From a virus: 34,692 nt of DNA. The notes beneath the pieces are model-generated. The model was not told where the DNA came from. It did no database searches and was given only the letters and a program-made list of their open reading frames with translations. The number at the start of each line of letters is the position of its first letter. Position 1 is the stretch's first letter. Made by a program: the position numbers and the translations under genes. This document shows positions 1 to 20,971 of the stretch, in pieces. The stretch lies in IMG/VR virus record IMGVR_UViG_3300024429_000127, positions 1 through 34,692 of that record. One strand, 5' to 3'.

Positions 1-328
1 GAATCATGCACAATAGCGGATCTCTGAGGGGTGATAGCGTCGGGACAACCAACATCATTGACTCTTGTGCTGATTGTGGGTACCAACGGTAGAAAGGTGA
101 CTGAACCGCCCCGTAATGCTCATATAGTAAAGTGAACTTGCCGGCCGGCGCAAGTGCTTCGTTGTGAGGATTACCCGTCCACCCATCCCGCAATACCCAT
201 CCATTTTGAAGCGCCATTAAGTTGTTGGTATGTGCGAGACCACCGATGTCTGGATGTTTCCGCAAGGCATCAATAACCCACCAGGTACCGGTGCTCTGCA
301 ACGTTGATAAGAGGATGTATTTATGCAT
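1..328 (-). CDS. sulfotransferase-like protein, C-terminus cut by window edge
   Basis: The first 109 residues are visible and the gene runs off the left edge. The N-terminus KYILLSTLQSTGTWWVIDAL resembles the 5'-phosphosulfate loop of PAPS-dependent sulfotransferases (hydrophobic strand, S-x-G-T-x-W, then helix). VVPTLSPLRDPLL at about residues 93-105 resembles the 3'-phosphate-binding strand ending in RDP. The ATG shares one base with the stop of the transketolase gene (TAATG), so the two are translationally coupled. Such enzymes transfer sulfate from PAPS to sugars or other acceptors. The acceptor cannot be read from the sequence. It is the last visible gene of the metabolic cassette. Confidence 0.6.
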   Translation of the reverse strand, partial: MHKYILLSTLQSTGTWWVIDALRKHPDIGGLAHTNNLMALQNGWVLRDGWTGNPHNEALAPAGKFTLLYEHYGAVQSPFYRWYPQSAQESMMLVVPTLSPLRDPLLCMI

Positions 329-1065
329 TATTGTAATTCTTCCATAGCAATCTTTTCCTGGTCATCACCCAACCATTTTGCATGCCACTCGGGTTTGTTT
401 TCCATGAAAGAGACGCCCTTGCCTTTGATTGTATGTATAAAAAATAAATTCGGTTTGTTTGGAGTTGTGGTTTTGGTAAGTAGCAGGTTAATTATCCTAT
501 CAATATCATTTCCTTCTAATGTCTTCATTACAATCCAACCTGCATTATTTGAAGCTTCCCATAATGCATTCATGGGTAATATATTGGATATCATGCCAGA
601 TCCCTGAATATTATTAGAATCCACAATCACAACCAGATTATCAAGCTTGTGATGTGCCGCAATCAGCATTGACTCCCAAGTTGTACCCTCTTGGCATTCG
701 CCGTCTCCCATAAGAACGTAAATTTTACCCGGCTCTCCCTTCAATTTCTTTGCCATCGCCATACCAACGCCCATCGGAAAACCATGCCCAAGGCTCCCGG
801 TTGAGCAGATAATACCGTTATGAGGGTCACGGGATGGATGCCCCTCAAGTCTCGGGTTAAACCCCTTCTCGCGCAAGATAACATACCAGGGCCAGCAAGC
901 ATGTCCTTTGCTCAAAATAAACCGGTCATCATCGGTAAGAACGTGATCATAGAGGGCAATCAATATTTCAACAATCGAGAAAGCACCGCCCCAGTGATAC
1001 CCGCCATTAGCCTTTGAAAGCTTTATGGTATCGCGTCTGATTTGTTTTGAGCGGTCGTTTAGCAT
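328..1065 (-). CDS. transketolase, N-terminal (ThDP-binding) subunit
   Basis: This 245-residue protein matches the N-terminal half of split transketolases. It has the early HWGGAFS segment, SKGHACWPWY, GSLGHGFPMGVGMA, and the thiamine-diphosphate motif beginning MGDGECQEGTTWES and ending in DSNN. Transketolase moves two-carbon ketol units between sugar phosphates and needs a C-terminal pyrimidine-binding half for a complete active site. No C-terminal half is present in this window. It may lie beyond the left edge, be supplied by the host, or be absent. The gene follows the upstream gene directly (TAAATG) and overlaps the sulfotransferase start by one base. Confidence 0.9.
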   Translation of the reverse strand: MLNDRSKQIRRDTIKLSKANGGYHWGGAFSIVEILIALYDHVLTDDDRFILSKGHACWPWYVILREKGFNPRLEGHPSRDPHNGIICSTGSLGHGFPMGVGMAMAKKLKGEPGKIYVLMGDGECQEGTTWESMLIAAHHKLDNLVVIVDSNNIQGSGMISNILPMNALWEASNNAGWIVMKTLEGNDIDRIINLLLTKTTTPNKPNLFFIHTIKGKGVSFMENKPEWHAKWLGDDQEKIAMEELQ

Positions 1066-1347
1066 TTATTGCGGTCGCCTCCCTTTTGGAGGTGAAGGTG
1101 GGGGTATTGGTTTTATTACTCCCGGAGGAGGCCCAAAGGAGTGCCCTGTTACTTTACTACCCCCCACCAGCGGTGTGCCATCAAACCTAACCCAACCATT
1201 TTCTTTTATATGTTTCCTAATAGCTTTGCTTAAATAATACGGGGATATTTTTCTTTTATGACTTATAAAAAATAAAACAATAGTTATGAGCATGAATAAT
1301 TCGCCTACACCGAAACCAAGCCAAAAATCATTAGACATATTTAGCAT
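1066..1347 (-). CDS. small membrane protein with proline-rich tail
   Basis: About 93 residues if the ATG at 1347 is used; a TTG at 1359 would add four. One transmembrane segment (FWLGFGVGELFMLITIVLFF) is followed by a basic region and a proline-rich C-terminus (GPPPGVIKPIPPPSPPKG). I do not recognise a family. It sits in the metabolic cassette between another small membrane protein and the transketolase gene, with no spacer to the latter. Its start region closely resembles that of the preceding gene. Confidence 0.6.
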   Translation of the reverse strand: MLNMSNDFWLGFGVGELFMLITIVLFFISHKRKISPYYLSKAIRKHIKENGWVRFDGTPLVGGSKVTGHSFGPPPGVIKPIPPPSPPKGRRPQ

Positions 1348-1359
1348 ATCGGGTACCAA

Positions 1360-1548
1360 TTATAAAATTCCCGAACAAGGACCATTTTTATTCTCGTTAG
1401 GAAAAAAAATCATTTGAATTAGTACAGCGCCCATCAAGCCGAAAAGCATAAAAGCCAGTACGTGCTTGGGAGGATATAAGAATATTGAACAAAAATTCAA
1501 TGTCATCAAAATATAACCTATTTTTTTACTTTTAAGTGAATTCAACAT
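1360..1548 (-). CDS. small hydrophobic membrane protein
   Basis: About 62 residues from the ATG at 1548; a TTG at 1560 would add four. There are two hydrophobic stretches (IGYILMTLNFCSIFLY and HVLAFMLFGLMGAVLIQMIFF), consistent with a two-pass membrane protein. The ATG lies inside the last codons of the methyltransferase gene, a 7-base overlap. Family unknown. A small holin-like role is possible but nothing specific supports it. Confidence 0.55.
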   Translation of the reverse strand: MLNSLKSKKIGYILMTLNFCSIFLYPPKHVLAFMLFGLMGAVLIQMIFFPNENKNGPCSGIL

Positions 1549-2312
1549 ATGGGATACCAATTAAAAATATCTGGCCTATCAGATTTATTTGAACGATCCA
1601 AGCAACCTTCTGGGAATGTACCGATCTTTGGTTTTATATTCCCGGCAAGTTCTTTGTGCACAAAGCTCACCTCAAGTAATGGCGGGAATACATGACTATA
1701 TCGATCACCGCCTTTTCCTTCTTCAACTTTGACAACCGGCAAAGAATTATTTGCATGAATATGATAAATACAGAAAACTTCATTCAGCTTTTTCAACTCA
1801 GAATAATATTTGAAAAAAAGATCTTGATTTATTTTGTCATGTGCATCTTGATAAACACCGTTGAAATATGGCGATAGTCCATCTTTGGGTTGAGTATGAA
1901 TAATATGGAACTCAACAAGAACCTGATCAAACATTTCTAATGTTGACCTACTTAAATTTTCCAACAAATCCCACTCATTCCATTCAATGTCTATTTTAAG
2001 CATTGATCTCAAAGGGATTTTAACAGAGTTCTCTGTGAATTCTTTTTTATGAAATTCAATTTTCGGATGATCCTCTTTAATCCCATCAATTGTCGGATCG
2101 AATAAGATTATTTTATCCGGGTTAAATTTATTCATGAAATCAAGTTCTAATCCTATATCATCACCCACCCCAACAGTTATCAACTTGGTTGTTTTCTGGC
2201 ATAACTCTTCCAGAACAACATAACCGCCATCACCTGGACCGCCCAATCTAACCTTTGTCAGGTCGCAATCATAGACAGTGAGTTCTTTTAAGAATTTTTC
2301 AATATTATTCAT
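1542..2312 (-). CDS. Methyltransf_22-type SAM-dependent methyltransferase
   Basis: A 256-residue protein with VRLGGPGDGGYVVL at about residues 21-34, a hallmark of the Methyltransf_22/METTL24-like group. It continues with a Rossmann-type SAM site (LITVGVGDDIGLELDF, then KIILFDPTID). The downstream strands KIDIEWNEWDLL and VLVEFHI fit the rest of the fold. The substrate is unknown. Its place beside sulfotransferase, transketolase and dehydrogenase genes suggests tailoring of a glycan or small molecule, which is inference. It overlaps the upstream membrane-protein gene by 8 bases. Confidence 0.75.
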   Translation of the reverse strand: MNNIEKFLKELTVYDCDLTKVRLGGPGDGGYVVLEELCQKTTKLITVGVGDDIGLELDFMNKFNPDKIILFDPTIDGIKEDHPKIEFHKKEFTENSVKIPLRSMLKIDIEWNEWDLLENLSRSTLEMFDQVLVEFHIIHTQPKDGLSPYFNGVYQDAHDKINQDLFFKYYSELKKLNEVFCIYHIHANNSLPVVKVEEGKGGDRYSHVFPPLLEVSFVHKELAGNIKPKIGTFPEGCLDRSNKSDRPDIFNWYPIC

Positions 2313-2580
2313 GGGGGTGGATTGCCTTTATAAGTTCATGGGTCTCGATAGTCTTATCCTCAATCCTTTTGAGCTGTTTTTTTATGTGTGAAAGTTCGTT
2401 CTCTAATATTTCTCCATCTACTTTCGGGAACCCAAGATCATCAAAAACCTCTCTTGATACTTCTCTGGCTTCGATGCGGTCAATTTTATATTCCAATGTA
2501 GTCCAAGCCACACCCATAAAAAATATAAGCCACGCCAATGATTTCCAATTATCTGACCACCAGCTGCGCTTTGTAGTCAT
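2305..2580 (-). CDS. small protein, N-terminal membrane anchor and coiled coil
   Basis: 91 residues. A membrane segment at about residues 12-28 (NWKSLAWLIFFMGVAWTTL) is followed by a charged, heptad-like helix (ENELSHIKKQLKRIEDK), which fits a membrane-tethered coiled coil. This layout occurs in phage lysis accessory proteins such as spanins and XhlA-like proteins, but no diagnostic motif is visible. It overlaps the methyltransferase gene by 8 bases and follows a virion-type gene. Confidence 0.6.
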   Translation of the reverse strand: MTTKRSWWSDNWKSLAWLIFFMGVAWTTLEYKIDRIEAREVSREVFDDLGFPKVDGEILENELSHIKKQLKRIEDKTIETHELIKAIHPHE

Positions 2581-2588
2581 AATACACT

Positions 2589-3071
2589 CTATCCTATTAT
2601 TGATGCATAATTTATGAATAGATCATGCGATGCATTTCCTGTTGTCGGATGATAAAGCCTAATTAATACTTCGTTGCTGCCGTTAATATAATTACGCCTA
2701 CTTGCTATGCCCACTGGTAAATCACTAAACCTATAATTGAAATCTAATCCCCTATCAAAAGTCCATAATAATCTCCAGACTGAATTCTCATCATCAAATA
2801 TCTGTGTCTGGATATAATGTGTTCCATCATAATAAGCTGAAATACCAATGAAACAAAAATCCCTAACATTGGCAAATGTAAACTGAATATTAAAACCTGG
2901 CACTCCCGTGACTTCTTGGAAATGGATTGAATTATTATCTTCCCAGTTTTGAATGTCTGATACTGACCCAGATATCAATGTACCGTCACTATCAATTATG
3001 TCCACGGAATTGGCTACAATAGGCGTTCTAATGACGTCACAAATACCAACATTAGGAGTGAGTTCTACCAT
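2589..3071 (-). CDS. predicted virion protein, beta-rich
   Basis: 160 residues, rich in polar and aromatic residues with alternating beta-type patterns (FCFIGISAYYDGTHYIQTQ, WRLLWTFDRGLDFNYRF). There is no signal peptide or catalytic motif. It begins directly after the stop of the 342-codon structural gene (TAAATG), so the two are probably made together. A tail, fibre or decoration component is most likely, inferred from composition and position. Confidence 0.6.
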   Translation of the reverse strand: MVELTPNVGICDVIRTPIVANSVDIIDSDGTLISGSVSDIQNWEDNNSIHFQEVTGVPGFNIQFTFANVRDFCFIGISAYYDGTHYIQTQIFDDENSVWRLLWTFDRGLDFNYRFSDLPVGIASRRNYINGSNEVLIRLYHPTTGNASHDLFINYASIIG

Positions 3072-4073
3072 TTATATCACCGATACCCTATAAGCGCTAT
3101 CAGCTATCCATGTTATGCGCAAACTGTCCACAACAATACCTGAAAACCTCATAACTTCATTTTGCTTCATAGTATGTTCGTCGCCAAAAGATACGCCGTC
3201 AGTTGAAAAAGCTATTGTGAAGTTACCGGGGCCATCATTTTTAATCCACCCCTGGGTGCCTTCTCTTCCCAGCCCAGCACTACTATTTATGTCCAGTGTA
3301 ACTGGACTATCACCAGTTTCAAAGCTGGTATCTTCAAAAAATATCGGCGTATCATCAATCCTGTTCACTTCAAGGCCGGAAGAGTCGTAAATAGTTACGT
3401 TTAATTGAGTATTTGAGTTGCTACTTATGGCAGCTTCAAGTTCTTCCAGTGATATTTTTAGATTATTACCATTCGTAGAACGTATATTAGCATATGCATT
3501 ATCAGCCCTCTTGGCCGTTAACACTGACCTCACTAAATCCGCAGGATGATCGGATGTGATAACGAATTCCACCCCATGAGTGTGCTGGTGTGATTGGTCT
3601 ATTTTGCTCAATGAAGAGCCTATGATAAACGCTGCTGTGGGTGTTGTTCCGTTTATATATTTAACCCGATAATACCTACCACTTAAAGTAAACGTATAAT
3701 GTTTATTAGAGCCTGCATTTATCGAAAAAGAATGAGTGTGATTTATGGTATTCGCATCGTCACTTGACTCAACTTTGAATCCATCTATTGCTGATAATTG
3801 ATCTGTAGATAATTCAATGCTTAAACTTGCATAATTTAATACATCAATCCATTCTCCTTCAAATATGCCACCATTACCAAGGTTTCCTGTTGTAGAATTA
3901 CCAGAATCAAGGACACGGACTGTTTGCAGTTCCGTGACAATATCATCTTGTTTTTCTTCAGTGGCTGCATTGATTGCTGAACCGCCAGTATTGGCTAACT
4001 TTATTTTTGAATCGTCAGATTGTATTACCCTAGATGTCGCTTTATCCGATGATCCCTCGCCACCTGATCCCAT
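3072..4073 (-). CDS. predicted virion structural protein
   Basis: 333 residues from the ATG at 4073, which overlaps the dehydrogenase stop as TAATG and has a GGGGGA Shine-Dalgarno. An upstream ATG at 4100 lies inside the dehydrogenase gene and is less likely. The Gly/Ser-rich N-terminus is followed by a segment common in phage structural proteins (DKATSRVIQSDDSKIKLAN and an ATEEKQDDIV helix), then a long Asn/Ser/Thr-rich beta region. A baseplate, fibre or minor structural role is inferred. Confidence 0.65.
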   Translation of the reverse strand: MGSGGEGSSDKATSRVIQSDDSKIKLANTGGSAINAATEEKQDDIVTELQTVRVLDSGNSTTGNLGNGGIFEGEWIDVLNYASLSIELSTDQLSAIDGFKVESSDDANTINHTHSFSINAGSNKHYTFTLSGRYYRVKYINGTTPTAAFIIGSSLSKIDQSHQHTHGVEFVITSDHPADLVRSVLTAKRADNAYANIRSTNGNNLKISLEELEAAISSNSNTQLNVTIYDSSGLEVNRIDDTPIFFEDTSFETGDSPVTLDINSSAGLGREGTQGWIKNDGPGNFTIAFSTDGVSFGDEHTMKQNEVMRFSGIVVDSLRITWIADSAYRVSVI

Positions 4074-5095
4074 TACAAATCCCCCATCGTTATAATGCAT
4101 TTACCCACTTGCCCGGATTTGATTATGCCGATGGCTTTGTTGATATCATTAAGCGAAAATCTATGAGTTACTAACTCATCGACTTTTAATTTCCCAGCTT
4201 TATATAATTTTAAATATCGAGGTATGTCTATCGTGGGATTGGTTAACCCGCCCTGGCTATCCATCAACGTCTTCCCACAATAATGTTGTCGCATATTGTT
4301 TATTTTAAGATCCTGATCGTGGGATGTCTGGCCGACCAATATCATCCTACCGCCTGGTGATGTTATGCTATACCCATATTCAATCATTTCCGTCTTGCCG
4401 GTACAATCGACAACTACATCATATAAGTCATGATAATAGATGAGTCTAATGTTAGTGGGATCATAAAGACCGGTTGCGCCAAACTTATTTGCCATCTCCA
4501 GCTTATTTGGATAAATATCGTAAGCATCAATGATCCCGGCACCAACCATCGCAGCACCCTGAACAATATTCAAGCCGACACCACCGCAACCAATAATAGC
4601 TATTGACTGCCCGATTTTTAAATGAGCCTCATTGTTTATTAATCCAAGCCCGGTTGTGACCGCGCATCCCATAAGGGCAGCTACATCAAAAGGGATGTCC
4701 TTGTCAATTGGAGTTAAACGATTTTCAGAGACTATGGCATATTCGGTAAATGTATGAATGGGGCCAGCCCCGACTATCTTATCCCCCCATTTATATTCAG
4801 GGCAGTGCTGTGCATCTATACCAGCCCCTTTTCGCCAATGCATCACGACGTGGTCGCCTCTCTTCAAGTGAGAACCACCACGACCGATGTTTTTAACAAT
4901 CCCCGCCCCTTCATGACCCAATAGATGCGGAAGGTATTTGTCATGTCCAGCAGATCCGGAAATCTCTCCTATTTGGGCGCCACAAATTCCAGCAGCTTTC
5001 ACTTTAACCAAAACCTGGCCACATTCCAGATTTGGGAGACATAAATCAGCTATAACTAGTGGAGAATTCTGTTTTTCGAGAATTGCGGCGTTCAT
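4073..5095 (-). CDS. zinc-type alcohol/polyol dehydrogenase (MDR family)
   Basis: A 340-residue medium-chain dehydrogenase. The catalytic zinc site is seen as C in VKAAGICGAQIGE and H-E in LLGHEGAGIV, with a likely third ligand C in MGCAVTTGLGL. The NAD(P) Rossmann motif is AIIGCGGVGLNIVQGA. The four-cysteine structural-zinc lobe of classical ADH is absent; its place is taken by HWRKGAGIDAQHCPEYKWG. This subgroup is familiar from polysaccharide and sugar-modification loci. It lies one base after the DUF3326 gene. Substrate unknown. Confidence 0.88.
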   Translation of the reverse strand: MNAAILEKQNSPLVIADLCLPNLECGQVLVKVKAAGICGAQIGEISGSAGHDKYLPHLLGHEGAGIVKNIGRGGSHLKRGDHVVMHWRKGAGIDAQHCPEYKWGDKIVGAGPIHTFTEYAIVSENRLTPIDKDIPFDVAALMGCAVTTGLGLINNEAHLKIGQSIAIIGCGGVGLNIVQGAAMVGAGIIDAYDIYPNKLEMANKFGATGLYDPTNIRLIYYHDLYDVVVDCTGKTEMIEYGYSITSPGGRMILVGQTSHDQDLKINNMRQHYCGKTLMDSQGGLTNPTIDIPRYLKLYKAGKLKVDELVTHRFSLNDINKAIGIIKSGQVGKCIITMGDL

Positions 5096-5096
5096 A

Positions 5097-6074
5097 TCAT
5101 ACCCTTACTGAATCAGGTTTTATGCCAGCCTTCATTGCCATGACATATCCAGCTGCCTCCCAATAGTTTTGAATATCAATCGAGAATTCTGTGTTTATAT
5201 TAAGACATGTTTTGTTTTCTTTTACTACTATTACTGGAATACCAGCTTTTTTGCATGCAGATTGCGCAACGTTCCAGCAACCATCAGGAGCAACCAACCA
5301 ATCAACGTCATCAATTGATATTCCCTTGGTCCGATTTCCAGTAGAAACCCTCGGCGCCCGGTGCAATCCCTTTAGGACACAATGAAGATAGCAGTTTGAA
5401 ATAACTTCAGGCGCCATACGTGGATTCATGGCAGAATTAATTATTTGCAATGAATCTTTTGTGTCCATGTCTTCAAGCGGTGCATGAGCGACAGGTTTCA
5501 TGAGTGCCTTTGCAATTAATTTCGATGCCTTGGCCTCAACGCCGCCCCATGGATTTATCCCACCGTTTTTAAAATAATCAAGAGCAACATTCCTCTTCAC
5601 GTCAATAACAGTGTGAATTGCCAAAGCATCAAAATTATAATCTTTAATCTGCCCAATTAATGACATATATCCCATTACGTCACCAGTAGCCAAACCTTGA
5701 TCGAATCTTGCCACCATCCTTAATTTAGATTCTAATTCGACAATCTCAATATCAGCGCCTATCGTTATCCGGGCAGCGTTAACAGCATTTATCGTTTGAT
5801 TTGAAATTGGTTTATTACATGCTAATAAAATCTTATTATAGGTTCTGACGGGTTCGAGGTTAACTTCATCCTTAAGAAACCTATCTAGGATGCTCCCTTC
5901 GACATAAAGAACATTCTCTGGCATCTCGTTAATGTCAGATGCATTGACAACATTGGGGTGTGTAATCAGGGTATCGCAACACCCAGCTAATAACTTACAT
6001 ACGGGATTTGCATCTCCAGCATGACCGCCGATTGTTGCGCCTATTCCTGTGGGTATTATCAGGACTCCTATCAT
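5097..6074 (-). CDS. DUF3326 family protein
   Basis: 325 residues matching the DUF3326 family as I remember it from cyanobacteria, plants and scattered bacteria. Matching landmarks are the N-terminal IIPTGIGATIGGHAGDA, LITHPNVVNASDINEMP, NVLYVEGSILDRF, the central INPWGGVEAKASKLI, AHAPLED, LHCVLKGLHRAPR and the late AAGYVMAMKAGI. Function is unknown. The glycine-rich GATIGGHAGDA may bind a phosphate or nucleotide. It overlaps the AdoMetDC-like gene by 4 bases (ATGA) and precedes the dehydrogenase by one base, so the three form one coupled unit. Confidence 0.75.
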   Translation of the reverse strand: MIGVLIIPTGIGATIGGHAGDANPVCKLLAGCCDTLITHPNVVNASDINEMPENVLYVEGSILDRFLKDEVNLEPVRTYNKILLACNKPISNQTINAVNAARITIGADIEIVELESKLRMVARFDQGLATGDVMGYMSLIGQIKDYNFDALAIHTVIDVKRNVALDYFKNGGINPWGGVEAKASKLIAKALMKPVAHAPLEDMDTKDSLQIINSAMNPRMAPEVISNCYLHCVLKGLHRAPRVSTGNRTKGISIDDVDWLVAPDGCWNVAQSACKKAGIPVIVVKENKTCLNINTEFSIDIQNYWEAAGYVMAMKAGIKPDSVRV

Positions 6075-6448
6075 AATCTATCCAATAAGTAATGATTAAC
6101 GATCTTCCCCTTAAATGTCTCTACAGCCAAGTAACTCAAGTTTTTAGTGTTAAATTTCTTGCAAGAAAATAGATTAATAAAAACTTTATCCAACATATCA
6201 AGGGTGTGTATAGTTATGTTGCTCTGAAGAAGGAATTGTACAGCCGTCGTTCCTTTTGTTTTGGGGTCAGTTTGTTTTTCATCTTCAGGAATACCAACAT
6301 CATCCCAGAAATAAAGAGCGCATTGCTCAACTTCCATAATTTCACAGCATTTTGTCATGAATTCTTCTATAACCGATCTTCTGAATGTAGAAGGGTCACA
6401 ATTATGTAAATCGAGTATTAATTCAGCGCCATATTTTTTGTCTTTCAC
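6071..6448 (-). CDS. S-adenosylmethionine decarboxylase-like pyruvoyl enzyme
   Basis: 125 residues, the usual length of class 1b bacterial AdoMetDC (SpeD/SpeH). The start is GTG at 6448, overlapping the upstream stop as GTGA. GAELILDLHNCDP matches the family N-terminus and LLQSNITIHTLD matches the SHxTIHT processing region. Counting from the candidate pyruvoyl-forming Ser, His lies at +5 and Cys at +20 (LFSC), the same spacing as the Ser63/His68/Cys83 set of the Thermotoga enzyme. The residue before the Ser is Gln instead of the usual Glu, and the next His is Asn. Homologues of this fold have also become ornithine or arginine decarboxylases, so the substrate is open. Confidence 0.75.
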   Translation of the reverse strand: MKDKKYGAELILDLHNCDPSTFRRSVIEEFMTKCCEIMEVEQCALYFWDDVGIPEDEKQTDPKTKGTTAVQFLLQSNITIHTLDMLDKVFINLFSCKKFNTKNLSYLAVETFKGKIVNHYLLDRL

Positions 6449-7128
6449 AATAAATCCTTTACGCTAACTTTCAGAAATTCCTTAATCGCACTATCGGGAC
6501 TGGCGTTAATGATCTCAATCCCAAGTTCTTTGGCATCTTTCGCAATCTGCGGGAATCCTCTTAAATGCCGAGCAAGGGTGGCCTTTTTAGTTTTGCCATG
6601 AAAACTATGAAAATGAGTATTCCCATCTTCTCCGGGGCACATATCAAATCCCAACAAAATAATCTTTTTTACGCCTAAATGCACAGCAAGGTTGATCGCG
6701 GCACTCCCACTGTTGCCATTCCAAGAAACCTTAGTTTTGTTTTGAGTAATTCCGAAACGTCTGTCAGGATTTTTTTTTAGTCCCTTGACGAAGTTTTCTT
6801 TTTTCTTATTGACGAACCGGGGGCAGCAAGATACTTTAAGTCCTGGGAATGTAGCCAGAGCGGAGCGGTGGATTGTATACCATGGGCAATCACCAAAAAA
6901 AACAATGTCTATCCATTCTCCCATGGAATAGGCGTTATTGATACCAATTATGCGTTGACCGTGAAGCTGGGAAAGGTATGGAGAATAAGCAGATAGCGGC
7001 AATTCATTATTCATTACACTATGAATAATATTCTCTGGAACGTCAAATTGACGGGGAACTGAATGCCCCCCCCCTATTATCCAGCACGTTTCACCTTGCC
7101 AAAAATTTGGGACTTGCCACGCTGGCAT
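6445..7128 (-). CDS. DUF115/MptE-like protein
   Basis: 227 residues. The N-terminal CWIIGGGHSVPR resembles the glycine-rich G-G-G/P-S loop of DUF115 (MptE-like, MAF_flag10) proteins. IIGINNAYSMGEWIDIVFFGD and KIILLGFDMCPGEDG also fit this fold. DUF115 domains occur in Maf flagellin glycosyltransferases, in MptE pyrophosphokinase and in many phage proteins of unknown role. It ends by overlapping the AdoMetDC-like gene and lies 2 bases after the 109-residue gene downstream of the capsid gene. A glycosyl- or diphosphate-transfer role is plausible but unproven. Confidence 0.65.
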   Translation of the reverse strand: MPAWQVPNFWQGETCWIIGGGHSVPRQFDVPENIIHSVMNNELPLSAYSPYLSQLHGQRIIGINNAYSMGEWIDIVFFGDCPWYTIHRSALATFPGLKVSCCPRFVNKKKENFVKGLKKNPDRRFGITQNKTKVSWNGNSGSAAINLAVHLGVKKIILLGFDMCPGEDGNTHFHSFHGKTKKATLARHLRGFPQIAKDAKELGIEIINASPDSAIKEFLKVSVKDLL

Positions 7129-7130
7129 CT

Positions 7131-7460
7131 TTAGCCCTCCAATAAATTCGAGAGCATTAATTCAGCTTCTTCCTGGCGGAGTCCTTTGTTGTTTATCGGC
7201 TTTTTTGACATGACGTTTATCACGTTAAACCAGCCATCAGGTTTGTCTTTTGATGGGACAATTTCAAATCCAATGACCGGAACTAAGGGAGCCGGTGCTG
7301 GTATGGCATCTAATGGCTTTATAACGTCACGTGCGCCTTTTGGGATTTCTTCTTCGTGAGCAAGGAAAGGCTCTCCCCTTTTATAAGTCTTTCCATTATC
7401 CAGAGACACCTTGCCGGTTTTGTTTACCCATTTAATCTTTGATCTTTTTTCATCTTCCAT
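7131..7460 (-). CDS. hypothetical protein of head module
   Basis: 109 residues, hydrophilic, with a proline-rich middle (KPLDAIPAPAPLVPVIG) and a C-terminus reading GWFNVINVMSKKPINNKGLRQEEAELML. It has no recognised catalytic motif. Being immediately downstream of the major capsid gene, it may be a head-completion or connector protein, but I do not recognise it. Confidence 0.6.
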   Translation of the reverse strand: MEDEKRSKIKWVNKTGKVSLDNGKTYKRGEPFLAHEEEIPKGARDVIKPLDAIPAPAPLVPVIGFEIVPSKDKPDGWFNVINVMSKKPINNKGLRQEEAELMLSNLLEG

Positions 7461-7502: not shown

Positions 7503-8576
7503 CTAGGAAATGTGCAACACACCGGAGGCCCCATTCTGATCGGCTCTAACTTGCGGAACCTGAATGGTCATTACTTTGTGCTTTACAATAAATGGCTCAG
7601 TAGTCCATTCCATGCTTTGAATACCAAGTCCACGAATTAACCTCACGACATCTTCGGTCATTTGGACAAGCAATACAGTGTTGGCGGGAAGCGTATCAAC
7701 CACTTTGATGCTATCGATATTGTTTATTTCCAAGATCCTCTGTCGAATAGTTTTTCCTGGGGTGGTTGCATCATAGTCTTTATCAAGTACAGTTTCATAT
7801 GCAGTCGGAATATAAAGAACATATGGACCGTAATGTTTGTCATTAATCAAGTCCTGTTTCCCGTCAATGACCTGCGTTACTATCTGTAACGGCGTTTTCG
7901 ATGCCCACGATGTACCAAGTGCACGGGTATTGCGCTGGGGATGATTTAAATAACTCCAAATAGTACCACCACCAAACACATAGGAAGTTGCTGTAAATAA
8001 CATTGATTCCAACTTCTCTGCAACCTTTCGCGTGGCATGTTTTACGCTGGTAACGTCCAAGGGATTTCCCAATTTACGGCTTGATTCCAGTTTTCTTTTG
8101 CTGATTGAATAATCAACGTGGATAATCGGAATGGGAGTGTAAAGAGTCTCGAAATTAGGCACATCTCCTGGTGACCTGGTTTCTCCAGTCATCGTGAGAT
8201 TAGCCTCCATCGAGTCTGATACAGTATGATGTTCTAATACTGTAGTGCCCATGGCATTTCCAAGATCGAAAGTCAGGTTCTTGTCAATCAAGTCCTGAAT
8301 CCCATTTAAACGCGTCCTGGATACTTCGAGAATGGCCGCATCTAAGGCAACCCATTCATCTCTCCGGAGAGTTGCGTTTGTAACCAGCCGATTTTGATAA
8401 TTGGTTTTCTTTTTAGGATCACCACCAGTAAATACCGTTATATATGGCCGCCAATCTTTCTTGGACACCCACGGTCTCATGGCATTTATATTTAGAGATC
8501 CCTCTTCCAACATTCTATTGGCCAGAACACCTTCAACTTGGTTTTTACCAATAAGATCAACATTTGTTTTTTCCAT
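7503..8576 (-). CDS. major capsid protein (HK97 fold, encapsulin-like)
   Basis: 357 residues following protease/scaffold and decoration genes, the standard place for a major capsid protein. Support comes from the N-arm, the long helix EWVALDAAILEVSRTRLNGIQDLI (seen in short pieces), the KRKLESSRKLGNPLDVTSV region, the YGPYVLYIPTAYETVLDKDY segment and a C-terminal beta strand IQVPQVRADQNG. These resemble encapsulin-type (Linocin_M18-like) HK97-fold shells. Shine-Dalgarno GAGG lies about 10 bases before the ATG. It forms the icosahedral head. Confidence 0.85.
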   Translation of the reverse strand: MEKTNVDLIGKNQVEGVLANRMLEEGSLNINAMRPWVSKKDWRPYITVFTGGDPKKKTNYQNRLVTNATLRRDEWVALDAAILEVSRTRLNGIQDLIDKNLTFDLGNAMGTTVLEHHTVSDSMEANLTMTGETRSPGDVPNFETLYTPIPIIHVDYSISKRKLESSRKLGNPLDVTSVKHATRKVAEKLESMLFTATSYVFGGGTIWSYLNHPQRNTRALGTSWASKTPLQIVTQVIDGKQDLINDKHYGPYVLYIPTAYETVLDKDYDATTPGKTIRQRILEINNIDSIKVVDTLPANTVLLVQMTEDVVRLIRGLGIQSMEWTTEPFIVKHKVMTIQVPQVRADQNGASGVLHIS

Positions 8577-11617: not shown

Positions 11618-12220
11618 ATGGAAACTAAGGTTTGTAATAAATGTAACAAGGATAAATGTTTGAATGAATTTCATAAAAACTGTATGAACAAATCCGGAAG
11701 ATTAACAATTTGCAAAGAATGTAGAAATTATCCACGCGTTAAAAGATCAAAAGAAACTTTTGAAATAATAATAAGTATGATTCAATATATGATTAGATTT
11801 GGACTTATATTTAGAATAAATAATAGAGATGGCATCCTTATAATTAATAATCACATAAAAAGATGTTATAGATGTAAAAAAGTAAAGGATTTAGATGATT
11901 TTCATAACGATAAAAATAGAATTGATAATAAAAGTTACGAATGCAAAGAATGTCTTTATGAAACATCTAAAAAACATAGGCAATTAAACCGAGAAAGATA
12001 CAATAAATATAGTAGTTTGTGGAAATTAAGGAATAGTGAAAAATGCAAAGAAAACCAAAAACTGTTATATTATAAAAATCCTTGTTTAGCGTCGGCAAAA
12101 TGTTATTTTAGAAAAGGAATAACTGGTATTTCTATTAATAAAATACCACCACGCTTGATCAAATATAAAGAAATTCATACTTTACTCAAGCGGGCTTTGA
12201 AATCTTCACAATCAACATAA
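11618..12220 (+). CDS. double zinc-finger protein, possible homing-endonuclease relative
   Basis: 200 residues with two similar Cys4 modules: residues 5-36 (CNKCNKDKCLNEFHKN to CKEC) and about 87-118 (CYRCKKVKDLDDFHND to CKEC). They resemble the treble-clef zinc ribbons of HNH/endonuclease VII-type phage proteins. The C-terminal part is basic and lysine/asparagine-rich. No complete HNH triad is evident, so nuclease activity is only a possibility. It is the second gene of the RHH-1 operon and is more AT-rich than its neighbours, suggesting separate acquisition. Confidence 0.55.
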   Translation: METKVCNKCNKDKCLNEFHKNCMNKSGRLTICKECRNYPRVKRSKETFEIIISMIQYMIRFGLIFRINNRDGILIINNHIKRCYRCKKVKDLDDFHNDKNRIDNKSYECKECLYETSKKHRQLNRERYNKYSSLWKLRNSEKCKENQKLLYYKNPCLASAKCYFRKGITGISINKIPPRLIKYKEIHTLLKRALKSSQST

Positions 12221-14332: not shown

Positions 14333-15700
14333 CTAATTCACCGTAACCGGGAGCCATGCGCACCGGCAGTTATGAACCAATATTCCATTTGCGTAGAATT
14401 CGGGCTGATCTTCGATAGTTAGATTATAGACATCCGTGATATCATCAAAGAAGTCTACCTGTTCAACCATGATCAGTTGTCCGCCAAAATTCAAAAGACT
14501 ATCATATTTTTTTAATTGATCAGCTCTTACGAAACCATCATTATCCTTCCAAATAGGGTGATCAACTGTACAATCAATAACAACTCCTGATTCCAGTCCC
14601 ACCTTCATCATCACACCAGAATATTTTCTTTTGCTTGTTTCTAATACCTTTTTATATCCTTTTCTTGTTAAAATTTTATCGCCTTCCTCAATTTCATAAA
14701 TATATTTATTTCCCTGATCTGCTTTAATAAGAGTATATTTTTTAAAACACGACGGGTGAACCGGAATTATCCCCCGAGCTTCCTCAATGGTAAAAATTTC
14801 CGCTTCAAGGGCTTCGCACTCTGCGCAAACCCTATCATCTCCCGCAGTAACAAATTCGGCACGTACCTTTACCCCAGCAACGCCAAAATTCTTGAACTCC
14901 TGAAGGGTTCCTTCGGCATGAGCCCTGATTATTTCTGTTCTTGCCAGCATCTTTGCCCGGCGCTGGGCAGGGATGAACCGGCCAAGAGTGTCAGTAATGG
15001 CGAGAGTATCCCCCACCGGCCCGCTGATAGTCTTTGTTAACCACCTTGCAATTGTATTGGGGTTTTGCCCTTCCGCTAATCCCTTGGCAAGCATACGGCT
15101 TATTTGCCCATCCATTGTCCCGGTAATCCCCTTGAGGTCGTTGAACGTCCTGGAGAACAAAAGACCAACCCGGTCAATGTGAAGGGGGTTGTTAAAAGCA
15201 GCTTCAATTCCACCGGAGGCTTCTATGGTAGGAACATCAAAGCCAGCCTTTCTCATTTCTTGCCGGGCCTGCTTAATCCCGGCTTGGTAGCCACTCTGAA
15301 TATATTTATCCGTCCATGCTGGCTCTATCCCTTGCCCGAACTGAATACCAAAGCCAAAATCGTTTACTTCAAGGATTCCCAATTGCTCTTGTTCCTTCAA
15401 CCATGACATGAATTGGTTGACTTTTTGACCGGATCGGCTAAAGGCGAATGCCTCTTGCCCGGGTGTCGATAATTGAAGAACGGTTGGGGGGTTCGTTAAT
15501 CCGAAAACATCCTCATCAACAATCGCTTGGCGAATTATTCCGCGAAGCTCAGTAAACCGTTTATTCATGTCACGAGCGAAGGCATTGCGAAGGGTCAATG
15601 TATGCGTCGGGTCGAACTGCTGGACGGCGTTGGCGGAGAGGTGGCGGGGGGGGTGACCGCAAACGTGAATCTTGTGTGATTTTTTAAGTTGTTGGATCAT
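14333..15700 (-). CDS. MuF-like minor head protein interrupted by an intein
   Basis: 455 residues as translated. Residues 1-317 are the N-extein: FDPTHTLTLRNAFARDMN, then LARTEIIRAHAEGTLQ, then VCAECEALEAEIF, features of phage head morphogenesis (Mu F/SPP1 gp7) proteins. Residues 318-444 are an intein and 445-455 the C-extein (CRCAWLPVTVN). Splicing would rebuild the family's typical HPxCRC-W ending. The mature 328-residue protein would sit at the portal vertex. The gene overlaps its upstream neighbour as TAATG, and its first 15 codons resemble three other leaders nearby. Confidence 0.82.
   Translation of the reverse strand: MIQQLKKSHKIHVCGHPPRHLSANAVQQFDPTHTLTLRNAFARDMNKRFTELRGIIRQAIVDEDVFGLTNPPTVLQLSTPGQEAFAFSRSGQKVNQFMSWLKEQEQLGILEVNDFGFGIQFGQGIEPAWTDKYIQSGYQAGIKQARQEMRKAGFDVPTIEASGGIEAAFNNPLHIDRVGLLFSRTFNDLKGITGTMDGQISRMLAKGLAEGQNPNTIARWLTKTISGPVGDTLAITDTLGRFIPAQRRAKMLARTEIIRAHAEGTLQEFKNFGVAGVKVRAEFVTAGDDRVCAECEALEAEIFTIEEARGIIPVHPSCFKKYTLIKADQGNKYIYEIEEGDKILTRKGYKKVLETSKRKYSGVMMKVGLESGVVIDCTVDHPIWKDNDGFVRADQLKKYDSLLNFGGQLIMVEQVDFFDDITDVYNLTIEDQPEFYANGILVHNCRCAWLPVTVN
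14369..14749 (-). other. mini-intein (about 127 residues) in the minor head protein
   Basis: It begins with Cys (CFKKYTLI, block A). The block B pattern DCTVDHPIW supplies the conserved T-x-x-H. VYNLTIEDQPEFYANGILVHN is a typical block F/G with penultimate His and terminal Asn, followed by Cys +1. It is too short to carry a homing endonuclease. It splits the conserved HPS-CRC motif of the minor head protein. All residues needed for class 1 splicing appear present. Confidence 0.85.
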
Positions 15701-20068: not shown

Positions 20069-20393
20069 CGAAAGTCACTGTAATGTTTTGATTTATCGGC
20101 TCGCCGTCCGGGCCGGAGACTTCTAAAATTTTCTTTCCAAATTCCTTCGGCCAAATCCTCTCAAGCGCCCATGCTTTAGATTGCCAACTAGGGTCTTCAT
20201 TTATTATTTTCAATAACTTAACTTGTCCTAATGATTTTGCCGCTTTTATCCTCTTGGAAAACTTGGGCTTTTTCATCCAATCATAGAAAGTCTCTTCATT
20301 GATTCCTACCGCCTCTGCGCAAGACTTATTAGACACACCTATGGCAAGCATACCCTCAATTTGTTTGATTATTTCCTCGCAGTATTTAGCCAT
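20052..20393 (-). CDS. terminase small subunit
   Basis: 113 residues, helix-turn-helix at the N-terminus (CEEIIKQIEGMLAIGVSNKS, CAEAVGINEETFYDWMKK), followed by SWQSKAWALERIWPKEFG, a signature of HTH-type small terminases. It recognises the packaging start and works with the large subunit encoded directly downstream. TAGGA precedes its ATG. Confidence 0.85.
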   Translation of the reverse strand: MAKYCEEIIKQIEGMLAIGVSNKSCAEAVGINEETFYDWMKKPKFSKRIKAAKSLGQVKLLKIINEDPSWQSKAWALERIWPKEFGKKILEVSGPDGEPINQNITVTFVELKH

Positions 20394-20435
20394 TTTCCTA
20401 ATCCTCGCGGCCGCTATCTCACAACATTATATTCC

Positions 20436-20711
20436 TCACCAATTAAAGAACTTGTGCAAGACCTCAAGATCGTGAGTGGGGATAACCCCGAGTGAATCTT
20501 TATTTTCAACCAAATGTTTAAAATATTGCTTTAAGCATTCAAGAAGATCTTGTTTTGCACTTTTTTTATCTCTACCCCACCCAAACATTTGAATATCAAG
20601 CCAATCATAACAGATAATTGGGGGATCTCGAAGTGAGTCCGATGCATTTAGATTTAAAGTGGCGAATTTCTCCAATTTAACCATTAATTTTGCATCGCTT
20701 TGTTTTCTCAT
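20436..20711 (-). CDS. hypothetical protein
   Basis: 91 residues; contains WLDIQMFGWGRDKKSAKQDL and a helical stretch (LLECLKQYFKHLVENKDSL), reminiscent of HicB-like antitoxin cores but too divergent to assign. Overlaps the upstream holin-like gene by 4 bases. Confidence 0.5.
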   Translation of the reverse strand: MRKQSDAKLMVKLEKFATLNLNASDSLRDPPIICYDWLDIQMFGWGRDKKSAKQDLLECLKQYFKHLVENKDSLGVIPTHDLEVLHKFFNW

Positions 20712-20971
20712 CTCTTCTGAGCTTTCCCAGCGTCGTATACCGTCGATCCCATGGCCCCAAGAAACAACCCGGTGAAAGCGTTATTAATCTCCGGGGTTAG
20801 CTGAAAGCCGAAAAGATCACCGATAAGCCCTAAAAGAGCGCCCACCAACGGGGGAATAACGGGCAGGAACTTTTTAAACGTTTTCTCGCTCTTAAAGGGG
20901 ATTAATCTTTTAAGGAGTCCGGTTATCCCTGGAGTTAGCAGGGTTATTATGGTTGAGATTGTTGTGTCCAT
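20708..20971 (-). CDS. holin-like membrane protein
   Basis: 87 residues with hydrophobic, glycine-rich helices (FLPVIPPLVGALLGLIGDLF and AFTGLFLGAMGSTVYDAG) and a basic C-terminus. Size and topology fit small phage holins, but no lysin gene is adjacent and the assignment is by composition only. Confidence 0.5.
   Translation of the reverse strand: MDTTISTIITLLTPGITGLLKRLIPFKSEKTFKKFLPVIPPLVGALLGLIGDLFGFQLTPEINNAFTGLFLGAMGSTVYDAGKAQKR

Follow-up and report, generated by a model that had tools for sequence, protein, structure and literature searches.

A probable tailoring cassette with a separate SpeD-DUF3326 gene pair downstream of a phage major capsid gene

The stretch of viral DNA analysed here, referred to below as the window, comprises 34,692 nt (IMGVR_UViG_3300024429_000127, positions 1-34,692) and is a truncated linear contig, throughout which the base composition is continuous. 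Every gene between positions 2 and 7128 is carried by the minus strand, and the block follows immediately after the major capsid gene, which lies on the same strand. From the capsid gene toward the left end of the contig, the features are the following:

7503-8576, minus: major capsid protein, given as context (PF19774, DUF6260, E=2e-22; phrog_771, E=3e-25)
7131-7460, minus: gene m, small conserved protein between the capsid and DUF115 genes (same place in the relatives L010 and L009)
6445-7128, minus: gene l, DUF115/MptE-like, candidate glycosyltransferase (phrog_4603, E=6e-34)
6071-6448, minus: gene k, predicted SpeD-like pyruvoyl decarboxylase (PF02675, AdoMet_dc, E=9e-12)
5097-6074, minus: gene j, DUF3326 protein (PF11805, E=2e-73)
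4073-5095, minus: gene i, MDR (zinc-binding alcohol) dehydrogenase (PF08240/PF00107, ADH_N and ADH_zinc_N, E ~1e-16; phrog_2640, E=1e-76)
3072-4100, minus: gene h, orphan protein without family, possibly virion-associated
2589-3071, minus: gene g, orphan protein without family or relatives, possibly virion-associated
2305-2580, minus: gene f, small membrane-type protein (ORF only, without family)
1542-2312, minus: gene e, FkbM-like methyltransferase, weak family match (PF05050, E=0.086)
1360-1560, minus: gene d, small predicted membrane protein (ORF only)
1066-1359, minus: gene c, small predicted membrane protein (ORF only)
328-1065, minus: gene b, transketolase N half, TPP pyrophosphate-binding domain (PF00456, Transketolase_N, E=3e-29)
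2-328, minus: gene a, sulfotransferase-like, cut by the contig end (relatives in L160 and L153)

Neighboring genes overlap by 1 bp (b/a), 4 bp (l/k and k/j), 8 bp (f/e), 19 bp (e/d) or 28 bp (i/h), and a gap of 1 bp separates j from i. A cassette with overlapping start and stop codons among phage late genes is what the original prediction had described, and this arrangement is confirmed, the same order being found in independent contigs and not arising by chance. Regarding the labels then given to the genes, Transketolase_N, MDR, DUF3326 and AdoMet_dc are recovered by Pfam, whereas Methyltransf_22 is not recovered, DUF115 falls below threshold and the sulfotransferase label has no Pfam match. 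Gene e matches only Methyltransf_21/FkbM, and this below threshold, although 24 of the 49 viral contigs that carry the transketolase also have a relative of this gene. Gene l, which lies behind the capsid gene in relatives too, scores 23.7 bits against PF01973 (DUF115/MptE-like; curated cut-off 34.6), and the phrog family that it matches is named alpha-2,3-sialyltransferase, a name-only assignment. Gene a is related to full-length sulfotransferase-like proteins of L160 (E=2.5e-5) and L153 (E=4.1e-5), and a gene of this kind lies between the two transketolase halves (TK-N and TK-C) also in L153, L166 and L175. Of the PAPS-binding features sought, the glycine of the N-terminal motif and an Arg-Asp pair are invariant among relatives; the profile matches a solved sulfotransferase weakly (E=0.55 at best), and the ST3 protein of L152 scores 25.6 bits against Sulfotransfer_3 (cut-off 27). 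The sulfotransferase and DUF115 assignments, coming from weak or name-only matches, are used below as putative. Relatives of genes c and d are absent from the fetched loci, and those of gene h from viral contigs.

Co-occurrence of these genes in related phages is found repeatedly. The order capsid-DUF115-MDR-(methyltransferase)-transketolase N half (TKN) is present in ten distinct phage contigs related through the major capsid protein, besides the window. More broadly, relatives of TKN can be found in 49 viral contigs, accompanied by TKC in 47, MDR in 41 and SDR in 34 (L010 and L152 are one contig). Gene b exhibits the GDG...N motif of the TPP pyrophosphate-binding domain, and the pyrimidine-binding half of the transketolase is a separate gene in 47 of the 49 related contigs (Transket_pyr in L010, E=1e-17). 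As the second half has about 160 aa in relatives and matches the Pyr domain only, a reduced form working like a transketolase would be expected. In the transketolase tree, the window falls among the viral sequences, without belonging to any smaller group that is well supported. The genes that the original prediction sought beyond the left edge do occur in fuller relatives: these have the other half of the transketolase and genes of glycosyltransferase type, and some of them nucleotidyltransferases as well.

The metabolic character of the enzymes could suggest that host DNA was wrongly joined to a phage contig, as the original prediction had considered. However, ten distinct related contigs share the junctions with the capsid block, the composition is continuous, and few bacteria have this type of transketolase (1 of 289, 0 of 246, 7 of 345 and 3 of 395 bacterial genomes at E<=1e-75), so that a chimera is given practically no credence and can be regarded as ruled out. 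It could also be imagined that the cassette is captured, non-functional cargo filling the genome, since "stuffer DNA" has been raised for the LPS genes of cyanophages (Sullivan et al., 2010; PMC3037559). Against this, pairwise dN/dS values of 0.02-0.15 in cassette genes (L166-L168), similar to the 0.056 of the capsid gene, indicate that the genes of the sugar module are under purifying selection in relatives; moreover, TPP motifs are retained in most transketolase copies and divergent phages share the gene order. Genome filler is therefore a very unlikely explanation.

The left 7 kb probably forms a tailoring cassette of the late operon in which two modules, each mobile independently of the other, are combined. 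One of them would make a surface sugar and attach it, most likely to the virion, and the other is an inserted SpeD-DUF3326 pair. The first module would comprise the DUF115-like, MDR, methyltransferase, split mini-transketolase and sulfotransferase-like genes; to the left of the window, an SDR, the other half of the transketolase and genes of glycosyltransferase type would be expected to follow. A modified sugar would arise through transfer of two-carbon units with thiamine, redox reactions with NAD(P)H, methylation and probably sulfation, and would then be attached to a surface, the DUF115-like protein being the likely core glycosyltransferase. The surface-glycan pathway proposed originally stands for five kinds of gene (MDR, transketolase, methyltransferase, sulfotransferase-like and DUF115-like), whereas membership of SpeD and DUF3326 is not supported. 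It holds because phage contigs with nucleotide-sugar genes of the HldE/HldD type have the core, as does a polysaccharide locus of a bacterium; the LPS clusters of cyanophages have it too, but lack this transketolase. Genes of the RfaE-I, RfaE-II and HldD types occur in about 20, 14 and 13 TKN-related contigs, respectively, and those of L161 are confirmed with NCBIfam (5e-33, 5e-43 and 1e-59). The cassette of L010, for which the sequence reaches as far as the head-tail genes, yielded no gene of the HldE/HldD type, so ADP-heptose cannot be transferred to this clade as the product and was not adopted as such. The truncated window has none of GmhA, HldE, GmhB and HldD.

As for the surface concerned, the virion is the preferred target because in relatives the module has the capsid gene on one side and the head-tail genes on the other; in L199, connector and major tail genes come after the cassette. 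This argument is weakened by several other phages, such as L161 and the cyanophages, whose core is surrounded by additional sugar genes and does not follow a recognised capsid gene. In a sibling phage (L009), the same block of capsid and DUF115 genes is followed by other sugar genes, namely those for GT11, GT2, GDP-mannose dehydratase and epimerase. Alternatively, the module may change the polysaccharide (LPS or capsule) of the infected cell's envelope, e.g., to exclude other phages, and leave the virion as it is. In bacteria, the nearest set of homologues that was found belongs to a locus for surface polysaccharide, and it has been argued for pelagimyophages that phage sugar genes modify the host O-chain (PMC7029224). 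On the other hand, the capsid-to-head-tail placement in the window's relatives suggests late expression, at which point exclusion would be of little use. Modification of the host surface is a somewhat unlikely reading.

Regarding the second module, gene j matches PF11805 over its full length (247.9 bits, cut-off 25). In 48 of 60 viral loci, SpeD adjoins DUF3326 or is close by; it adjoins DUF3326 in 33 of 80 cellular (genome) loci, an NspC-like decarboxylase taking its place in 24 more. Gene k keeps the self-processing residues S76, H81 and C96. The diagnostic proline of true AdoMetDC (PMC10407285) is missing, position 84 being D in our own alignment to the published logo; 5 of the 48 viral pairs have this proline, and all genome pairs lack it. 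Ornithine decarboxylases of the SpeDC type are recognized by Gln, Thr, Phe and Tyr residues. Gln71 is conserved in 47/48 viral and 30/33 genome pairs, and the Thr of most SpeD-DUF3326 pairs is replaced by Gln75 in the window. Judged by these residues, gene k does not encode a standard AdoMet decarboxylase. The predicted enzyme would cleave itself to become a pyruvoyl enzyme and decarboxylate an amino acid, the probable substrate being L-ornithine and not AdoMet, and DUF3326 would act on or with the resulting amine.

The pair sits between the DUF115 and MDR genes with 4-bp overlaps, and a different SpeD ends the cassette of L010. It could therefore be hypothesized that SpeD-DUF3326 takes part in glycan synthesis and that an amine, for example putrescine, is joined to the sugar or lipid in this way. 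This is improbable, since the pair occurs in many unrelated phages and cells without a recurrent sugar neighbor and DUF3326 is absent from every other transketolase cassette fetched. For the same reasons the pair is regarded as a separate two-gene unit inserted into the first module, its role as a sugar step not being supported. No DUF3326 relative was found in the phage collection searched, and 35 genomes with a DUF3326 pair display no clear replacement pattern among spermidine synthase, deoxyhypusine/homospermidine synthase, NspC and saccharopine-dehydrogenase-like families. With about even chances, SpeD-DUF3326 may represent an undescribed two-gene amine pathway that phages, bacteria and archaea have in common. 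An amine would be formed by a pyruvoyl decarboxylase or, in other genomes, by a PLP decarboxylase of the NspC-like kind, and DUF3326 would perform a new step with it; in this phage, the pathway would be coupled to that of the surface sugar in one late operon. The linkage itself appears to be new, being undescribed in the literature searched.

The AlphaFold model of gene j is of high confidence (pLDDT 93.3, pTM 0.90). DUF3326 has no sequence relative in the PDB, and Foldseek with shallow (7-row) and deep (88-row) DUF3326 models gave no match below E=0.001. VIA-align Z scores are middling, the best being 8.5 for lumazine synthase over 128 residues. Ornithine carbamoyltransferases recur as weak Foldseek matches (TM ~0.2) and were not used. 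As modeled, DUF3326 has no clear structural relative, and no fold was assigned from matches of this strength.

The old question of whether phage sugar-pathway genes are functional or filler (PMC3037559) is made testable by a conserved, selected set behind a capsid gene and by sibling phages swapping sugar sets at one spot. As a conserved family of unknown function, DUF3326 is here tied to amine-forming decarboxylases in phages, bacteria and archaea, which provides a lead on its role.

Among known systems, SpeDC and SpeDA (PMC9992855, PMC10407285) descend from SpeD and are pyruvoyl enzymes that decarboxylate ornithine and arginine; gene k resembles them as a phage-encoded SpeD homologue that lacks the AdoMetDC proline, has a conserved Gln and retains Ser/His/Cys. 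Neither paper is among the literature found to mention DUF3326. Mycobacteriophage virions are described in PMC12619734, citing Freeman et al. (2023), as glycosylated on capsid and tail subunits; there the glycans have been shown on virions, whereas we infer the window case from sugar-building enzymes and not from glycosyltransferases alone. The surface polysaccharide locus L217, which is cellular (Bacteroidota), harbors SDR, a 160-aa transketolase Pyr half, the N half, MDR and HldE consecutively, together with GT9, FkbM MT, dTDP-sugar isomerase, DegT (aminotransferase) and C-methyltransferase genes. LPS/heptose clusters can be found in several T4-like cyanophages, including P-SSM2 and S-SSM7 (PMC3037559). 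Those of S-SM2 and P-TIM68 have an MDR related to gene i (46-47% identical), together with an HldE-type kinase and adenylyltransferase, an HldD-like epimerase and a capsule-phosphatase-type HAD, genes that lie beside the transketolase core in other phage contigs. In contrast, the TPP enzyme of S-SM2 is a different, fused protein of 402 aa without match to the window transketolase; the idea that the cyanophage "transketolase central region" protein is a fused form of the window enzyme was dropped, as the comparison gave no match. The clusters of S-SM2 and P-TIM68 lie near nrd, tRNA or hli genes, whereas the window cassette lies behind the capsid gene, and the DUF3326 of the window has no relative in the phage collection. 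The sugar module is a variant of the known phage LPS/heptose clusters, and as such a variant it is itself new.

The record is a linear virus sequence of 34,692 bases, and its left 7.5 kb holds co-oriented minus-strand genes immediately downstream of the major capsid gene, with overlaps of 1 to 28 bases at several gene junctions. The original prediction, a metabolic or tailoring cassette with overlapping gene ends among virion genes, is confirmed in this respect. Its labels needed correction, as given below in transcription order.

Genes of the left block (all on the minus strand)
1st: small gene m, 7131-7460
2nd: DUF115-like gene l (phage family named alpha-2,3-sialyltransferase, E=6e-34; weak by Pfam)
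3rd: SpeD-like gene k (Pfam AdoMet_dc, confirmed)
4th: DUF3326 gene j (Pfam confirmed)
5th: MDR dehydrogenase gene i (Pfam confirmed)
6th and 7th: orphan genes h and g
8th: small membrane-type gene f
9th: FkbM-like methyltransferase gene e (weak by Pfam)
10th and 11th: small genes d and c
12th: transketolase N half (TK-N), gene b (Pfam confirmed)
13th: sulfotransferase-like gene a, truncated by the contig end (weak by Pfam)

Elsewhere in the window, the minus-strand head operon is broken at 11618-12220 by a gene on the plus strand in which a CxxC motif is repeated, apparently an inserted mobile endonuclease-like gene; a Mu F-like head protein (14333-15700) ends almost directly after a C-terminal domain of the HINT/intein type (PT-HINT, E=7e-12), and a tRNA-Ile (anticodon gat) lies inside the phage at 21962-22034.

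The glycan genes of this block, here called module 1, form a conserved phage cassette. With the TK-N protein as query, 49 distinct loci were found in viral contigs, mostly at 45-65% identity (L010 and L152, a single contig, were entered once; several contigs are near-duplicates). The separately encoded second transketolase half (TK-C), which had been predicted beyond the left edge of the window, accompanies TK-N in 47 of the 49, together with MDR (41/49), SDR (34/49), and methyltransferase (24/49) genes. Ten distinct contigs (L010, L153, L155, L157, L166, L167, L168, L176, L191, and L199) also encode a related capsid protein and share, in a single orientation, the order capsid gene, DUF115, MDR, mostly a methyltransferase, TK-N, TK-C, and SDR. 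In most of them a methyltransferase/GT9-type gene and a sulfotransferase-like gene come after SDR, and in L199 the genes after the cassette include head-tail connector and major tail protein matches. In the annotation of the cultured Brevundimonas phage MaInes, whose capsid protein is more distant, no such cassette stands behind the capsid gene. Pairwise dN/dS among L166-L168, a coarse estimate by simple counting on three closely related contigs, is 0.02-0.15 for MDR, methyltransferase, both transketolase halves, SDR, and DUF115, against 0.056 for the capsid gene, which argues that the module 1 genes are functional.

Different sugar genes can occupy one and the same place. Whereas the transketolase cassettes carry the genes just described, the viral contig L009 has capsid, a small gene, and DUF115 followed by GT11, FkbM methyltransferase, GT2, C-methyltransferase, epimerase, and GDP-mannose 4,6-dehydratase genes. 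Since the DUF115 gene stays fixed while the adjoining sugar genes are exchanged, gene order suggests a surface-glycan system in which DUF115 may be the core transferase. The virion is the preferred target of the glycan, the alternative being the host envelope.

The transketolase is reduced: its N half has 245 aa, and the second half, as seen in relatives, has about 160 aa and matches the pyrimidine-binding domain only. The TPP motif is retained in 49 of the 50 N halves compared, and 45 of the 48 second halves have a GxxEQ motif. Adjoining the core are RfaE-I type kinases in about 20 contigs and RfaE-II and HldD-type genes in 13-14; in the viral contig L161, the RfaE-I, RfaE-II, and HldD-type genes match NCBIfam heptose models at 5e-33, 5e-43, and 1e-59. 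Sedoheptulose 7-phosphate, from which the heptose route usually starts, can be supplied by a transketolase, and an ADP-heptose-like sugar is therefore a plausible product in contigs with such genes. This product is not carried over to the window's clade, because RfaE-I, RfaE-II, and HldD-type genes were not found in the L010 cassette, covered up to the head-tail genes. In their place L010 has an APS-kinase-like and NMN-adenylyltransferase-like fusion (20101-20820), for which sugar activation or PAPS supply is possible.

The SpeD-like and DUF3326 genes are a system separate from module 1, and the more novel of the two. As DUF3326 is absent from every other transketolase cassette retrieved, and the SpeD of L010 (L206 11905-12330; canonical ESH motif, at the cassette end before virion genes) differs from that of the window, the pair is best seen as an inserted unit. 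Among 60 viral DUF3326 loci, a SpeD homologue is directly adjacent in 43 and nearby in five more; the best 80 cellular loci have adjacent SpeD (33), an adjacent NspC-like PLP decarboxylase (24), a contig edge (2), or neither (21), these tallies being of loci and not independent events because some viral loci are near-duplicates. A glutathionylspermidine-synthase-like gene stands just ahead of the pair in 14 cellular loci. In the NspC group (L033, L044, and others), the NspC-like decarboxylase (L033 against TIGR01047, E=3e-75, under the model's cut-off) replaces SpeD ahead of DUF3326, with an AMP-binding ligase gene coming after DUF3326 in seven loci. Across L012-L091, most cellular DUF3326 proteins encoded beside a decarboxylase gene have a longer N-terminal part than those of phages and than those standing alone, which come mainly from planctomycetes. 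In the window SpeD, the Ser, His, and Cys needed for processing are retained. The proline characteristic of AdoMet decarboxylases is missing and the Gln shared by nearly all pairs is present, so that its residues would fit the ornithine-type group, SpeDC (PMC10407285). The predicted DUF3326 structure is confident (pLDDT 93.3, pTM 0.90), with no clear match among solved structures, and we propose that DUF3326 acts on the amine. Polyamine synthases, looked for in 35 genomes carrying the pair, gave no clear pattern.

The surface-glycan pathway originally proposed is supported for module 1, through its recurrence in phages and a bacterial polysaccharide locus, and not for the SpeD-DUF3326 pair. 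Close TK-N relatives are rare in bacteria (1/289, 0/246, 7/345, and 3/395 genomes at E<=1e-75). The best, from a Bacteroidota genome, has the order SDR-TKC-TKN-MDR-HldE inside a polysaccharide locus, also with GT9, FkbM, dTDP-sugar isomerase, DegT, and C-methyltransferase genes; another bacterial copy (L219) has SIS-domain isomerase and acyltransferase genes nearby. In cyanophages, LPS genes are known to co-occur, function or stuffer DNA being left undecided (Sullivan et al., PMC3037559). In cyanophages S-SM2 and P-TIM68, MDR is accompanied by HldE-type genes and epimerases.
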